A stretch of DNA of 64,000 bases from Paenirhizobium selenitireducens ATCC BAA-1503 (lineage in GTDB: Bacteria > Pseudomonadota > Alphaproteobacteria > Rhizobiales > Rhizobiaceae), in assembly GCF_000518785.1 (NCBI RefSeq), contig NZ_JAEG01000015.1, positions 62,001 through 126,000 of the forward strand, written 5' to 3'. How positions within the stretch are numbered: the first letter of the stretch is position 1; each line of letters starts with the position of its first letter. A program made the translations under genes and the position numbers. This document shows, piece by piece, positions 5,067 through 61,258 of this stretch. The notes beneath the pieces are model-generated. The model was not told the origin of the DNA. It ran no database searches and saw only the letters and a list, made by a program, of their open reading frames with translations.

Positions 5067-6136
5067 CGGACGACGTCGCCCTCAACACCGGCCGGCCATT
5101 GCGCTGCCGGGTCGAGCCGCACATAGGCGACGCCCGGCAGGCCGGTCTTGACCATCTCGATGTGCTTCAGCAGCAGTTCCGGATTGATCTTCGCCTTGAC
5201 GCGGAACATCAGCTTCTCACGCTCGATCTGCGTTTCAACCGTCTTCGGCGTGAATTGCGCGACATTGGCGACGAAGGAAACGGTTGCCGGAATGATGTAT
5301 TGCGGCGCAGCGTCGAGTTTCAGGCGCACTTCCGCGCCGATCGCCACCCGGCCCGCCTGGTCGGTCGGCAGGAAGAAGCTCATGTAGACGTCGCCGAGGT
5401 CGACCAGGTTGATGACCTTGCCGCCGCCGGCGACGATCTCGCCCGGCTGGGCGACGCGGAACTGGATGCGGCCGTCACGCGGGGCGGTGAGCGTGCTGTC
5501 GGCGATGACGGTTTCGATGTTGTCGATCGCGGCTTCCGCCGCATCGGCGGCGGCCTCTGCGTTCACCACCTGGGCCTTGGCATAGCTGATGGCGGCATCG
5601 GCTGCGGCCGACTGGGCTTCGGCTGCGGCAAGGGCCGCGCGCGCGCCTTCCGCGGCGGCCTGGTCGTCCTCCAGCGTCTGCTGCGAGATGGTGCTGGAAC
5701 TGGCGAGCTGCTTGGAGCGCACCATCCGGCGGTCGGCCGAATCCAGCAGGATCTGACGCTGTGAGACGGCGGCGACGGCCGCTGTCTTCTCGGCATTGCG
5801 CTGTTCGACGAGCGCCTGGGCGGTTTCGATACCGATATCGGCCCGGCGCTTCTCGGCCTCAGCCTGGCGCAGCTGCGATTCCAGCTGTTTAGTATCCATC
5901 TGAGCGAGTTTCTCGCCGGATTTGATGAAGTCGCCTTCGTCGACAAAGATCTCGCTTATGCGTCCGGCGGTCTTGGCCGCGACATCGATCTCGACCGCTT
6001 CGATCCGGCCATTGCCGCTGGCGATGCCATCGGCCAGTTCGGATGCCTGCAGCGACTGCCAGAAATAGTAGCCGCCGCCTGCCGCCGCGGCGAGGACAAG
6101 AGCGACAATGATCCCGTTTCGGCTGGCTGGTTTCAC
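5063..6136 (-). CDS. HlyD-family membrane fusion protein (YhiI-like)
   Basis: First gene of the export operon. From the chosen GTG start it has 357 residues: one N-terminal membrane segment (about 5-23, Gly/Ala-rich, ending in YYFW), a biotinyl-lipoyl-like half motif ([20 protein letters not shown]), a long Ala/Glu/Gln-rich coiled coil (about 75-195) and a beta-barrel half with [10 protein letters not shown]. It would bridge the inner-membrane ABC exporter to an outer-membrane channel. The GTG at 6136 is preferred because AGGAG sits 9 bases upstream; the longer form from the ATG at 6193 adds 19 polar residues with no visible ribosome binding site. It ends in a 4-base overlap with the fused ABC gene. 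Confidence 0.86.
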
Positions 6137-52409: not shown

Positions 52410-54545
<2,136 letters not shown>

Positions 54546-54585
54546 CGATCGGTCTCCCTGAACATCCATTGCCCATCACACTGAG

Positions 54586-54793: not shown

Positions 54794-56796
<2,003 letters not shown>

Positions 56797-56800
<4 letters not shown>

Positions 56801-57162
56801 GGCTTTCCGGCTTCCATTGTGTCTTCGAAGGCTTGCGGGAAGTTCTTCCGCGCCAGGCTTGCATTGAGTTTCAGCAGGGCAAAATACGAGGCTGGGTCGA
56901 AGGCCCGTTCCGCCGGCAACACTTCGCGCCCGAACAGGCGGCACAGCCGTTCGCCATCCAGATTTCCGCGCTGGAACGGCTCCGTGCCGAAATGGCGCCA
57001 GAGGGCCTGAACGAACTCGATGTCGGCAAGCGCCACCGACTTGTCCATGGTGCGGTGGCGCGGCCAGGCGGCGAGCGGCGTGACCTTGGAATTGGCCCTT
57101 CGGATGGTGAACTGCCACTGGGTTCCGAGCAGTCCGGCCGGGAAGCCCTGATGCTTGGGCAT
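56797..57162 (-). CDS. Unknown protein, tandem paralogue A, coupled to pccA
   Basis: 121 residues from the ATG at 57162 (AAGGA 7 bases upstream); the ATG at 57180 would add 6 residues without a ribosome site. I do not recognise the family. It aligns along its whole length with the gene at 57220-57597: GFPxGL near the N-terminus, FTIRR, ALWxHFG, RGNLD, LFGREV, PAE then FDPxSY, ALL, and RKxFPxAFED at the end. No signal peptide or membrane segment is seen. Its stop overlaps the pccA start (ATGA), so it is translated in step with the carboxylase. Confidence 0.75.
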
Positions 57163-57219
57163 GAGCGGATCCTTGGCCATCAGCCGCGACCCCGCTTGCG
57201 GATTTCGTCGAGCGCCATG

Positions 57220-57597
57220 TCAGATTTCCATCACGTCTTCGAAGGCTTCCGGGAAGCTCTTGCGACCGACGCGCTCGTCGATCCGCAACAGGGCTTCATA
57301 GGAGGTCGGATCGAACGGTGTTTCCGCCGGGATCACCTCCCGGCCGAACAGCAGGTTCAGCCGCCCGGCATCGAGATTGCCGCGCTCGAACGGTTCGTCG
57401 CCGAAATGGTGCCAGAGCGCGTGCAGGAAGGCGGCGTCGACCTTCTGCTCGATCGTGTTGGGGCGGGCGAGGCGTTGCAGGACTTTCAGCGGCGTCGCCC
57501 CGTTCTGGTTCGGCCGCCTGATGGTGAAGTGATGCCCGTGCCCCGGCAGTCCGGACGGAAAGCCGCGATGCTTGGTCATTTCGGGGGTCTTGGTCAT
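57220..57597 (-). CDS. Unknown protein, tandem paralogue B
   Basis: 125 residues from the ATG at 57597, which follows AAGGAG. Clear paralogue of the gene at 56797-57162 with the same order of conserved blocks; roughly half the positions look identical by eye. It is soluble, rich in Arg/His/Pro in the N-terminal third and alpha-helical-looking later. It sits 73 bases after the DUF2442 gene. No known domain recognised. A role tied to the propionyl-CoA carboxylase, or cargo inserted with the DUF4160/DUF2442 pair, are both possible. Confidence 0.72.
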   Translation of the reverse strand: MTKTPEMTKHRGFPSGLPGHGHHFTIRRPNQNGATPLKVLQRLARPNTIEQKVDAAFLHALWHHFGDEPFERGNLDAGRLNLLFGREVIPAETPFDPTSYEALLRIDERVGRKSFPEAFEDVMEI

Positions 57598-57670
57598 CCC
57601 GGTCTCCTTCAAGCCTGGGCGATCGTGTCTTGGTGGGGCGAGGGCTTGTGGTCTGGTGTCGAAGTCGATT

Positions 57671-57955
57671 TCATTCCGCTGCTTGCGCCGGCGGTTTGGC
57701 ACCGGGCGCTGCTCCACCGATGATGAGAGCCTTGGCGCTGATATATTCGTCTATCTCCTCCCATCCCACGGCATCGCCGAAGGGCAGGATCTGCCAGTGC
57801 ATGCGCTGTTCGGCGGAGGCCGCGTGAAGGCGAGGATACCACCACAAAGGTGCTTCGATTCTGCGGCCATCGGCCATCTTGAAGATGATGGCGTCGTTGT
57901 TCACCTCGACGTCCGAGACGAGCAGCTGTTTGTCGTCAATGTCCAAAGTGGTCAT
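57671..57955 (-). CDS. DUF2442 protein
   Basis: 94 residues. The DUF2442 core is clear: VSDVEVNNDAIIFKMADGRRIEAPLWWYPRL, then HWQILPFGDAVGWEEIDEYISAKAL. The ribosome site GGAGG precedes the ATG. It overlaps the DUF4160 gene by 20 bases. Pairs of DUF4160 and DUF2442 genes are frequent and have been proposed as toxin-antitoxin-like modules; I treat that as unproven. Confidence 0.86.
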   Translation of the reverse strand: MTTLDIDDKQLLVSDVEVNNDAIIFKMADGRRIEAPLWWYPRLHAASAEQRMHWQILPFGDAVGWEEIDEYISAKALIIGGAAPGAKPPAQAAE

Positions 57956-58172
57956 GCCATGCCTCCAAGAACGCCTGTCTGTTTTCTCCGATGACCTTCA
58001 GGATATCATTGACCTCGTGGGCGGCGAAGCCGGCCTTTCGGGCAACCCGAAGATCCTTCAGCCAGACTTTCAATTGCTTGCCGTCCTTGAGCACATGGAC
58101 ATGAGGCGGTTCACCGATCTCTTTCGAGTAGAACAGGAAACGATGGCCCTTCCACAGCAGGAGGGTGGGCAT
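57936..58172 (-). CDS. DUF4160 protein
   Basis: 78 residues with the family pattern GHRFLFYSKEIGEPPHVHV and AGFAAHEVNDILKVIGENRQAFLEAWHDHFG. HxH motifs suggest a nucleic-acid- or metal-binding role. It starts only 12 bases after the pccB stop, so it is read from the pccB transcript, and overlaps DUF2442. Likely partner of DUF2442. Confidence 0.87.
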   Translation of the reverse strand: MPTLLLWKGHRFLFYSKEIGEPPHVHVLKDGKQLKVWLKDLRVARKAGFAAHEVNDILKVIGENRQAFLEAWHDHFGH

Positions 58173-58184
58173 CCCTGTCTACCC

Positions 58185-59717
58185 TTACAGCGGGATGGTG
58201 TCGTGCTTCTTCCAATGCGTGCCGACCTGCTTGTTGCGCAGCGAGGCGAAGGCGCGGGCGATGCGGCGGCGCGAGGAATGCGGCATGATCACCTCGTCGA
58301 CGAAGCCACGTTCGGCGGCCTTGAACGGGTTGGCGAAGTTGACCTCGTATTCCTTGGTGCGGGCCGCGATCTTTTCCGCGTCGCCGAGTTCGGAGCGGTA
58401 GAGGATTTCGGTCGCGCCCTTGGCGCCCATGACGGCGATCTCGGCGGTCGGCCAGGCATAGTTGATGTCGGCGCCGATATGCTTGGAGGCCATGACGTCG
58501 TAGGCGCCGCCATAGGCCTTGCGGGTGATGAGCGTGACCATCGGCACGGTCGCCTGGCTGTAGGCGAACAGGAGCTTGGCGCCGTGCTTGATGACGCCGC
58601 CATATTCCTGGGCCGTTCCGGGCAGGAAGCCGGGGACGTCGACCAGAGTGAGGATCGGGATGTTGAAGGCGTCGCAGAAGCGGACGAAACGGGCGGCTTT
58701 GCGCGAGCTATCGATATCGAGGCAGCCGGCGAGCACCATGGGCTGGTTGGCGACGACGCCGACCGACTGGCCTTCCATGCGGATGAAGCCGGTGATGATG
58801 TTCTTGGCGAAGGCTTCCTGGATCTCGAAGAAATCGCCCTCGTCGGCCAGCGCGTAGATCAGCTCCTTCATGTCGTAGGGCTTGTTGGAGCTGTCCGGGA
58901 TCAGCGTGTCGAGGCGGGCCTCGACGCGGGCCGGGTCGTCGTGGAAGGGACGGACCGGGGGCTTTTCGCGGTTGTTGAGCGGCAGGAAGTCGAACAGCAG
59001 GCGAACCTGTTCCAGTGCCTCGATGTCGTTCTCATAGGCGCCGTCGGCGACCGAGGACTTCTTCGTATGGGTGCCGGCGCCGCCGAGTTCTTCGGCCGTG
59101 ACGATCTCGTTGGTGACGGTCTTCACCACGTCCGGACCGGTGACGAACATGTAGGACGAGTCACGCACCATGAAGATGAAGTCGGTCATGGCGGGCGAAT
59201 AGACCGCGCCGCCGGCGCAGGGGCCCATGATGACGGAAATCTGCGGCACGACGCCCGAGGCGTCGACATTGCGCTTGAAGACGTCGGCATAGCCGGCGAG
59301 GGAGGCCACGCCCTCCTGGATGCGGGCGCCGCCCGAGTCGTTGAGGCCGATGACCGGCGCGCCGTTCTTCAGCGCCATATCCATGATCTTGCAGATCTTC
59401 TGCGCGTGGGTCTCGGACAGCGAGCCGCCGAGCACGGTGAAGTCCTGGGAGAAGACATAGACCTGGCGGCCGTTGATCGTGCCCCAGCCGGTGACCACGC
59501 CGTCGCCGGCGATCTTCTGCTCGGCCATGCCGAAGTCGGTACAACGATGCGTCACATACATGTCGTATTCTTCGAAGGAGCCGTCGTCGAGCAGGACTTC
59601 GATGCGCTCGCGCGCCGTCAGCTTGCCCTTGGCATGCTGGGCGTCGATGCGGCGCTGGCCGCCGCCGAGATGGGCCTCGGCGCGGCGCGCCTCAAGCTGG
59701 TCCAGAATCTGTAACAT
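58185..59717 (-). CDS. pccB: Propionyl-CoA carboxylase beta subunit (carboxyltransferase)
   Basis: 510 residues with the N- and C-terminal carboxyltransferase crotonase folds. Landmarks: [58 protein letters not shown] (oxyanion region) and [21 protein letters not shown]. It transfers carboxyl from biotin on PccA to propionyl-CoA. The start follows GGGAGGAAGC. It is the first gene of the minus-strand unit and divergent from the ScfR-like regulator. Confidence 0.93.
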
Positions 59718-59775: not shown

Positions 59776-59848
59776 TTGCAAAGAAAATGATTGAACAGGT
59801 GCAATTGTGGATTTATGAATTTGCAAACAGCGAAATGCGAAATTGCAA
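59776..59848. promoter_or_regulatory. Cluster of TTGCAA palindromes between pccB and its regulator
   Basis: TTGCAA occurs at 59776-59781, 59821-59826 (within the perfect TTTGCAAA at 59820-59827) and 59843-59848, the last one touching the regulator's start codon. TTTGCAAA-type motifs are known targets of the RamB/PrpR relatives of this regulator. The layout fits autoregulation plus control of pccB. Confidence 0.65.
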
Positions 59849-61258
59849 ATGGCGATCGGCAAGCTTTTCATCGGGCGCAAGGTGCGCGAAATTCGGCAGG
59901 CGGGCCATGCCACGCAGGCCCAGTTTGCCGACAAGATCGGCATTTCCACCAGCTATCTGAACCAGATCGAGAACAACCAGCGGCCGGTCTCGGCCTCGGT
60001 GCTTCTGGCGCTGGCGGAGAAGTTCGGTATCGACATCACTGAACTTTCGTCGGGTCAGAACGACCGGCTTTTGTCGGCGCTGTCGGAGGCGCTGAGCGAC
60101 CCCTTGTTCGAGACCTATTCGCCGAGCCTGCAGGAGTTGAAGCTCGTCACCCAGAACGCGCCGGGGCTCGCCCATGCGCTGATCACCTGCCACCAGGCCT
60201 ATCGCCGCAACAGCGAGCAGCTGGTGAGCTATGACGACCGGTTCGGCGCCGCCCCCTCGAACGAGACGACCTCCTATGACGAGGTGCGCGACTTCTTCCA
60301 CTTCGTCGACAACTACATCCACGACATCGACATATTGGCGGAAAGCCTGGCCGGCCAGCTGAAGCTCGGGGAGGGCGAAAACCACGCGGCGCTCGCCGGC
60401 TTCCTCGAGAGCCGATACGGGGTGCGCGTGGTGCGCGGCGATGCGGGCGAGGAGGCGATCCGTCGCTTCGACCCGGCAAGCCGCATCCTGACGCTCAGCC
60501 GCTATGCCTCGGCGCCGACCCGCGATTTCCAGATCGCCATCCAGGTGGCGCAGCTCCATGCCCGCGACACGATCGAGCAGGTGCTGAAGCAGGCGGGCTT
60601 CCGCACGGAAGAGGCGGTCGAGGTCTGCCGCATCGGCTTGCACAACTATTTCGCCGGCGCGCTGATCCTGCCCTATCGCAGCTTCCACCAGGCGGCGCGC
60701 GAGCTGCGCCACGACATCGAGCTTCTCGCCGCCCGGTTCGGCGCCTCGCTGGAGCAGGTCTGTCATCGGCTGTCGACGCTGCAGCGGCCGGGGCTGAAGG
60801 GCGTGCCGATCTTCTTTGCCCGCATCGACCGGGCCGGCAACATCACCAAGCGACACAGCGCGGCGCGTCTGCAATTCGCCCGTTTCGGGGCGGCCTGTCC
60901 CTTGTGGAACGCGCATCAGGCCTTCGAGGCGCCGGGACGGATCATCCGCCAGCTGGCCGAGACGCCGGATGGGGTGCGCTATCTCTGTCTCGCCATGCAG
61001 GTCAACAAAGGCACGCTCGGCTTTCGCGCCGCCCAGCCGCGCTATGCCTTGGCGCTCGGCTGCGAGATTTCCTATGCGGATCAGTTCGTCTATGCCGACG
61101 ATCTCGACCTCTCCAACCGCGCCGCCTTCGACCCGATCGGCATTTCCTGCCGGATCTGCGAAAGGGTCAAATGCACCAGCCGCGCCGTGCCGCCCTTGAA
61201 GCGCAAGCTGGTGGTGGACCACAGCGTGCGGAACGCGACGCCTTACGAGATCGAGTGA
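59849..61258 (+). CDS. XRE-type short-chain fatty acyl-CoA regulator (ScfR/PrpR-like)
   Basis: 469 residues. HTH_3 at about 8-65 (KVREIRQAGHATQAQFADKIGISTSYLNQIE), a central IrrE-like domain (about 150-280) and a C-terminal DUF2083 domain with GISCRICERVKCTSRAVPP; Cys residues there recall the iron-sulphur cluster of mycobacterial PrpR. Members control propionate/methylcitrate or acetate genes and sense short-chain acyl-CoA. It is divergent from pccB with TTGCAA sites between. A TTG two codons earlier is an alternative start. Confidence 0.87.
   Translation: MAIGKLFIGRKVREIRQAGHATQAQFADKIGISTSYLNQIENNQRPVSASVLLALAEKFGIDITELSSGQNDRLLSALSEALSDPLFETYSPSLQELKLVTQNAPGLAHALITCHQAYRRNSEQLVSYDDRFGAAPSNETTSYDEVRDFFHFVDNYIHDIDILAESLAGQLKLGEGENHAALAGFLESRYGVRVVRGDAGEEAIRRFDPASRILTLSRYASAPTRDFQIAIQVAQLHARDTIEQVLKQAGFRTEEAVEVCRIGLHNYFAGALILPYRSFHQAARELRHDIELLAARFGASLEQVCHRLSTLQRPGLKGVPIFFARIDRAGNITKRHSAARLQFARFGAACPLWNAHQAFEAPGRIIRQLAETPDGVRYLCLAMQVNKGTLGFRAAQPRYALALGCEISYADQFVYADDLDLSNRAAFDPIGISCRICERVKCTSRAVPPLKRKLVVDHSVRNATPYEIE

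Follow-up and report, generated by a model that had tools for sequence, protein, structure and literature searches.

The window, a 64,000-nt stretch of DNA, encodes two small paralogous proteins between the genes for the two subunits of propionyl-CoA carboxylase (PCC), pccB and pccA, and the linkage of their family to these carboxylase genes is strong. The first and second paralogue are here called Pa and Pb. It is very probable that both are functionally tied to the PCC pathway. Our best explanation, which we hold tentatively, places them as accessory proteins in the methylmalonyl-CoA pathway. They would be produced alongside PccB and PccA, bind PCC or its individual subunits, and most likely act as small proteins that modulate the enzyme or assist its assembly. 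Direct binding of Pa and Pb to PCC would be a somewhat bolder claim, which we regard as possible.

Gene order and duplication within the pcc operon

Between positions 54794 and 59714 of the window, the minus strand carries pccB, DUF4160, DUF2442, Pa, Pb and pccA, in that order. All four small genes that a first-pass annotation of this DNA had placed between pccB and pccA on one strand were thus present. The product of pccB (58185..59714 from the first likely ATG, minus strand) is the beta (carboxyltransferase) subunit, with the PCC beta subunit 3n6r_B as its best PDB sequence match (E = 3e-286). The alpha subunit, which carries the NCBIfam biotin carboxylase and biotin carrier matches, is encoded by pccA (54794..56800, minus strand). 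A methylmalonyl-CoA mutase gene (mcm; 52410..54569, minus strand) lies 3' of pccA; it was named from its sequence, and public records annotate homologues 3' of pccA likewise. A divergent gene (59843..61258, plus strand) encodes an ScfR-family regulator (PF09856 ScfRs, E = 1e-64, with M78 and HTH_3), which is PccR-like by position and scored 437 bits against NCBIfam RamB, under the cut-off of 700. PccR, of the ScfR family, is described as controlling pccB in Rhodobacter (PMC12632250, PMC10370305), and the gene at 59843-61258 probably encodes the PccR of this locus.

Pa (57220..57597, minus strand) has 125 aa and was assigned to an unnamed pcc-linked family by sequence comparison, synteny and tree. 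Pb (56797..57180, minus strand) has 127 aa when counted from the first Met conserved in orthologues; of the two lengths given previously, 125 and 121 residues, the former was correct and the latter counts from the second Met of Pb. The ATGA overlap of Pb with pccA was confirmed in the sequence, the TGA stop of Pb sharing these four nucleotides with the ATG of pccA. The same coupling was found in comparison loci L032, L033, L034, L036, L039 and L040, and wherever Pb is intact in the remaining loci of a 39-locus set, at least 8 nt separate it from the start of the following gene or of pccA. No promoter-like or terminator-like sites were detected on the minus strand between pccB and pccA, a weak result given that approximately 0.6 promoter-like sites are expected in the whole stretch. 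A 12-codon open reading frame (MALDEIRKRGRG) fills the Pa-Pb gap (57181-57219, minus strand) and overlaps Pb by TGATG; gaps of similar length and ending were present in L032, L034 and L036, and not in L039. Two comparison loci showed anomalies. The pccB, pccA and mcm products of L039, from a MAG labelled Arenimonas, share 97-98% identity with the Rhizobiaceae-type proteins of the window, and its bin label or contig is therefore probably misassigned. In L067 (Rhizobium sp. RCAM05350), the frames of pccB, Pa, Pb and mcm are all broken within 10 kb, a pattern suggestive of sequencing error.

Over 124 positions, Pa and Pb share 54% identity, and they are the sole two family matches in the window's own genome. 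In the family tree, the Pb sequences form a single clade of 25 (SH-aLRT 99), which takes in the lone Pb-type copy of genome G094, and Pb directly follows Pa in 24 of the 39 loci. The duplication is therefore old and shared, and not local to the window's genome. Comparison with six relatives each gave dN/dS values of 0.07-0.12 for Pa and 0.03-0.17 for Pb, and both genes are kept by strong purifying selection. Retention of both copies, previously proposed as a sign of function, is thus more than chance: dN/dS lies within 0.03-0.17 for the two proteins, and synteny of the family extends across many genera. Across the family, Pa ranges from about 113 to 137 aa, and the motif F-x-R-G-N-L-D is intact even in the most distant member (L110).

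Distribution of the Pa family and its linkage to carboxylase genes

The Pa family was found in 49 of 151 genomes of the window's own family and in 139 of 149 genomes of a second family, f25 (126 of 132 among good genomes). On the basis that named relatives group with each, these families were taken as the Rhizobiaceae and the Rhodobacteraceae in the wide sense, respectively. A class-wide sample yielded the family in 5 of 385 genomes, namely the window's own and four of f25, and a phylum-wide sample of 398 gave 32 matches, of which four were in the window's family, 26 in f25 and two by chance. Within the window's order, a distant member was present in one further genome of 150; one further weak match aside, no other true member was found among 136 genomes of that genome's family. 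Weak matches in G1119, G844, G1300 and G1287 were rejected as chance matches, which lie antisense to, within or beside unrelated genes; G1253 gave another weak match (E = 0.007).

Among the 39 loci, which come from named genomes and overlap as a sample with the own-family genomes (L066 and contig C26 of G039 share length and layout), Pa lies between pccB and pccA in 36. In two of the other three, pccA flanks Pa and the contig stops short of pccB on the opposite side; the third, from Shinella (L054), has only a glutathione S-transferase (GST) gene, with no pcc gene within 5 kb. In f25, Pa lies 9-2429 nt (median 1112) 3' of pccB on the same strand in 129 of the 139 carriers, a count that leaves out a second Pa place in G593 (C78), a second piece in G650 and two pccB paralogues (53-54%; G541 and G580). 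The remaining ten carriers comprise three without pccB in the search, six with pccB on another contig and one with pccB 424 kb away; in two of these ten (G679 and G597), pccA is located just 3' of Pa. When one Pa was counted per own-family genome, leaving out the second copies of G000 and G011, 40 of the 49 carriers had Pa beside pcc genes, eight had it beside a YghU-type GST gene instead, and one (G094) beside neither. The 40 consist of 37 with Pa next to pccB and three added on closer look, in which Pa lies beside a truncated pccB and pccA (G001), beside pccA with pccB elsewhere (G082), or on a contig that starts just before GST-Pa-pccA (G039). Even the most distant true member (L110, 41% identical) is encoded directly between pccB and pccA. 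A strain of Paracoccus denitrificans also has a Pa homologue, and in another strain of that species, Pd1222, pccB (Pden_3688) and pccA (Pden_3684) are separated by three locus tags (PMC10370305).

These results strongly support, by synteny, the suggestion of the first-pass annotation that Pa and Pb could be a carboxylase-linked factor: pcc genes are beside Pa in 38 of the 39 loci, and Pa is just 3' of pccB in 129 of the 139 f25 carriers. The genes are not scattered at random, and the minority that lies away from the pcc operon (8 of 49 own-family carriers) does so with a GST gene. That interpretation held only in part, since its other suggestion, that Pa and Pb are the second half of a DUF4160/DUF2442 module, fails on the distribution of DUF4160 given below.

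Within the window's family, Pa appears to be an old companion of a single PccB lineage, and a dispensable one. Own-family PccB proteins were divided into an upper group, 74-100% identical to the window's PccB, and a lower group, 71-74% identical; this split is a score rank in one search and was checked on a tree of 46 sequences, in which the deepest split is weakly supported (41). Pa was present in 48 of the 82 genomes with an upper-group PccB and in none of the 51 with the lower group only. Among the 18 genomes without a scored pccB, Pa was found in one, which holds a truncated pccB, and all nine own-family carriers with Pa away from same-strand pcc genes still have an upper-group pccB. In the tree of 46, nine of the 10 lower sequences fall in one starred clade, and the upper group stands beside the f25 sequences with weak support. 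Upper-group genomes without Pa are scattered (9 rows, 8 changes), so that Pa was probably lost several times. Genomes with pccB and without Pa number 34 of the 82 in the upper group and 9 of 145 in f25.

Searches for a related fold and alternative roles

The first-pass annotation could not name the family of Pa and Pb, and our profile searches agreed. Neither protein matched a Pfam family at E values up to 10, and searches against NCBIfam, PHROGs and PADLOC (the latter two with the window's proteins) gave nothing beyond chance. For the members of two wider alignments, of 36 (A1) and 25 (A2) sequences, Pfam and NCBIfam yielded no more than isolated matches at chance level, with one member of each matching an unrelated family (E = 0.13 and 0.3, respectively). 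Pa alone had no sequence match in the PDB, and the only match by profile was a weak one to 2cpm (Sperm-associated antigen 7; E = 0.075 with A1 and 0.04 with A2), which we take to be an R3H domain. A Pa-family gene is annotated as a hypothetical protein in plasmid records of Paracoccus ferrooxidans (CP038202), Agrobacterium vitis F2/5 (NZ_CP081843) and Paroceanicella profunda (NZ_CP040819), and the gene order in the A. vitis record is acyl-CoA carboxylase beta, two hypothetical proteins, alpha. A literature search, which covered mainly papers outside subscription journals, returned no recognisable description of the family.

The AlphaFold2 prediction for Pa is confident (mean pLDDT 89.6), and the core alone, residues 43-125, reaches 91.1. 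Foldseek returned no significant match for Pa in the PDB or BFVD, the best PDB match having an E value of 1.6. With VIA-align, the best match of the core had a Z score of 4.9 (7jk5_E, rmsd 3.8, 74 residues aligned), followed by 4.8 (2jtv, rmsd 3.0, 64 aligned), and many of the matches listed were winged-helix proteins (MarR, PadR, ORC, forkhead, ScpB), all with Z scores of 4.9 or less. No R3H chain was among the matches listed, which carries no weight either way. DUF3253 (PF11625), presumably the family of 2jtv, was absent from the 21 genomes searched. Thus, the modelled Pa core appears weakly winged-helix-like, which is a lead rather than a result.

Winged-helix-like cores often bind DNA, and the many winged-helix chains listed for the Pa core, even at Z scores of 4.9 or less, raise the question of whether Pa regulates the pcc operon or pathway by binding DNA. 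The protein has a basic N-terminal arm that might serve such a role: over 116 sequences, the median net charge is +7 for the first 45 residues and -8 for the remainder. However, this acidic core would argue against DNA contact through the core and would fit a protein partner, Foldseek gave no PDB match better than an E value of 1.6, and a divergent ScfR regulator already stands beside pccB in the window; a regulatory role is therefore very unlikely. It is quite unlikely that Pa and Pb are mere passengers, Pa being one cassette among many in a well-expressed operon whose pccB-pccA interval tolerates insertions. Such tolerance is indicated by the length of the interval, 401-3245 nt in 36 loci, and by its contents in these and further loci (including L083, L085 and L086), namely GST, the DhiTA-like pair considered below, KptA/Tpt1, SpoIIAA-like, cupin, TPR-like, DUF6497 and DUF559 genes. 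A passenger would nevertheless hardly be expected in 139 of 149 f25 genomes and beside pccB in 129 of those 139, or to be under strong purifying selection in both copies, as is the case in the window's relatives. Moreover, GST, Pb and DUF4160 occur in 27, 24 and 7, respectively, of the 39 loci, all of which were selected on the presence of Pa.

Another explanation is that Pa is the partner of the YghU-type GST, as a thiol/redox or electrophile-handling pair, and that Pa belongs to the pcc operon only secondarily. A GST homologue lies 5' of Pa in 27 of the 39 loci. In 29 of the 49 own-family carriers the two genes share a strand and are no more than 2.5 kb apart, and in eight of the 49 the GST-Pa pair is outside the pcc operon. 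The one GST tested (L035:4063-4989) passes NCBIfam PRK11752, which we take to be the model for the gene name YghU, with 508.2 bits against a cut-off of 325. The Pa tree requires five or more switches of state between "pcc" and "moved", which suggests that the pair moved more than once; the tree is poorly resolved, and the number could rise because every f25 row was entered as "pcc" and "no GST", and L102 (G659) has no pcc gene within 1.5 kb. In contrast, no YghU-type GST is beside Pa in L069, L070 and L086-L089 of f25, where the Pa family is nearly universal, or in further f25 loci (examined over flanks of approximately 1.5 kb in most cases and of 5 kb in L143 and L146). Likewise, Pa adjoins pccB and has no GST beside it in 17 own-family carriers, and a search of the window's own genome gave no YghU-type GST match at E = 1e-50. 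We therefore consider a primary GST partnership unlikely; in Rhizobiaceae, the GST may be a functional partner of Pa or a neighbour moving along with it. The GST-Pa pairs seen outside the pcc operon are those of L054, L076-L082 and L084. L054 and seven of the eight own-family pairs have unlike neighbours, while the eighth (G113, L078) is located 0.4 kb beyond mcm on the other strand, in a genome in which pccB and pccA are adjacent without Pa.

The proposal that Pa and Pb belong to a module with DUF4160 and DUF2442 rests on their adjacency in the window and on L084, where GST and Pa, away from the pcc operon, have a DUF4160/DUF2442 pair between them. In the window, DUF4160 (57936..58172, minus strand; PF13711, E = 3e-16, 59.8 bits against a cut-off of 23) and DUF2442 (57671..57955, minus strand; PF10387, E = 3e-12, 46.9 bits against 23.9) overlap by 20 nt and encode the putative toxin and antitoxin, respectively, of a DhiTA-like pair. 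The dhiTA system of Dickeya dadantii is listed as a two-gene toxin-antitoxin system consisting of DUF4160 followed by an overlapping DUF2442 (PMC8198452, Table 1), and the window pair has the same two domains, toxin-first order and overlap. It differs in that the DUF4160 protein scores only 16.5 bits on NCBIfam DhiT, against a cut-off of 100; the pair is therefore DhiTA-like rather than DhiT itself. It is also unrelated to Pa and Pb. DUF4160 was found in only 7 of the 39 loci, before the Pa-Pb block in five and after it in two, and three of the seven are distant versions (47-49% identical). From this low frequency and the two positions, it follows that the pair is not a partner of Pa and Pb, and since dhiTA itself is described as a two-gene system (PMC8198452), membership of Pa and Pb in such a module, already largely refuted by distribution, is hardly tenable. 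The pair looks like a separate mobile DhiTA-like toxin-antitoxin cassette inserted in a busy interval of the pcc operon. A second DUF4160 gene is present in the window's own genome (G000:C4:40581-40778). L035 has a short DUF2442-like match just before pccA (5843-5926), perhaps a remnant of a second cassette, in addition to a whole DUF4160/DUF2442 pair before GST. Overall, the pccB-pccA interval has the look of an insertion hot spot for diverse small genes.

A proposed accessory role and its parallels in known systems

If Pa and Pb are accessory proteins of PCC, the factor would be made in step with the PCC subunits, and its product would bind PCC and alter its assembly or activity, as AccE/PccE do in actinobacteria; Pa and Pb would have had split or paired roles since their old duplication. 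Such a factor would be facultative. Pa is missing from many genomes with pccB and thus is not needed for catalysis everywhere. Similarly, the crystals of a chimeric PCC from Roseobacter and Ruegeria were grown from a recombinant complex of alpha and beta subunits (PMC10148081; 3n6r), so Pa is not needed to form PCC. The eight own-family carriers with Pa beside GST outside the pcc operon, and the many other genes taken up by the pccB-pccA interval, also speak against an accessory role. Published work on alphaproteobacterial PCC provides two further points of reference, the first of them also against an accessory role. In Dinoroseobacter shibae, Strep-Tactin co-purification enriched PccA and PccB (PMC10890935), and the one hypothetical protein listed, Dshi_1084, could not be matched to Pa. 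In C. sphaeroides, pcc transposon mutants lose growth on propionate, and the section on them is silent about the genes that lie in the pccB-pccA interval.

A more far-reaching form of the accessory role, which we consider doubtful, is that the family represents an overlooked facultative third subunit or assembly factor of alphaproteobacterial PCC. This would be a separately evolved epsilon analogue, nearly universal in Rhodobacteraceae and duplicated into Pa and Pb in Rhizobiaceae, where it would also be teamed with the YghU-type GST. A near-universal f25 protein that is encoded almost always beside pccB would be a missing piece in the building or control of PCC. Bacteria such as Rhodobacteraceae process much marine propionate and acrylate. 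In people, faulty PCC assembly causes propionic acidaemia (PMC10148081).

For a bacterium of the Roseobacter clade, a small gene within the pcc operon has been described previously. Proteogenomics of Ruegeria pomeroyi reported that SPO_PG022 is co-transcribed with SPO1094, a propionyl-CoA carboxylase gene (PMC3305630), and by this description, on which our comparison is based, it is, like Pa, a small gene of the pcc operon. It was, however, reported to resemble one other annotated gene (PMC3305630), which does not fit the wide distribution of Pa, and may therefore be another gene.

The closest known parallel is with AccE/PccE, the actinobacterial epsilon subunits. Pa and Pb differ from these in that they match no Pfam family, and the epsilon-subunit family is, we assume, contained in the Pfam copy searched. 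Accordingly, Pa and Pb were rejected as members of that family for want of a profile match, even though they are encoded near the beta gene. The Pa core is at best winged-helix-like, and alphaproteobacterial PCC forms without Pa. The epsilon subunits are described as being encoded near beta genes and as affecting both efficiency and assembly (PMC13118682). Like them, Pa and Pb are small, are encoded close to the PCC beta gene and are multiplied in some genomes (PMC13118682).
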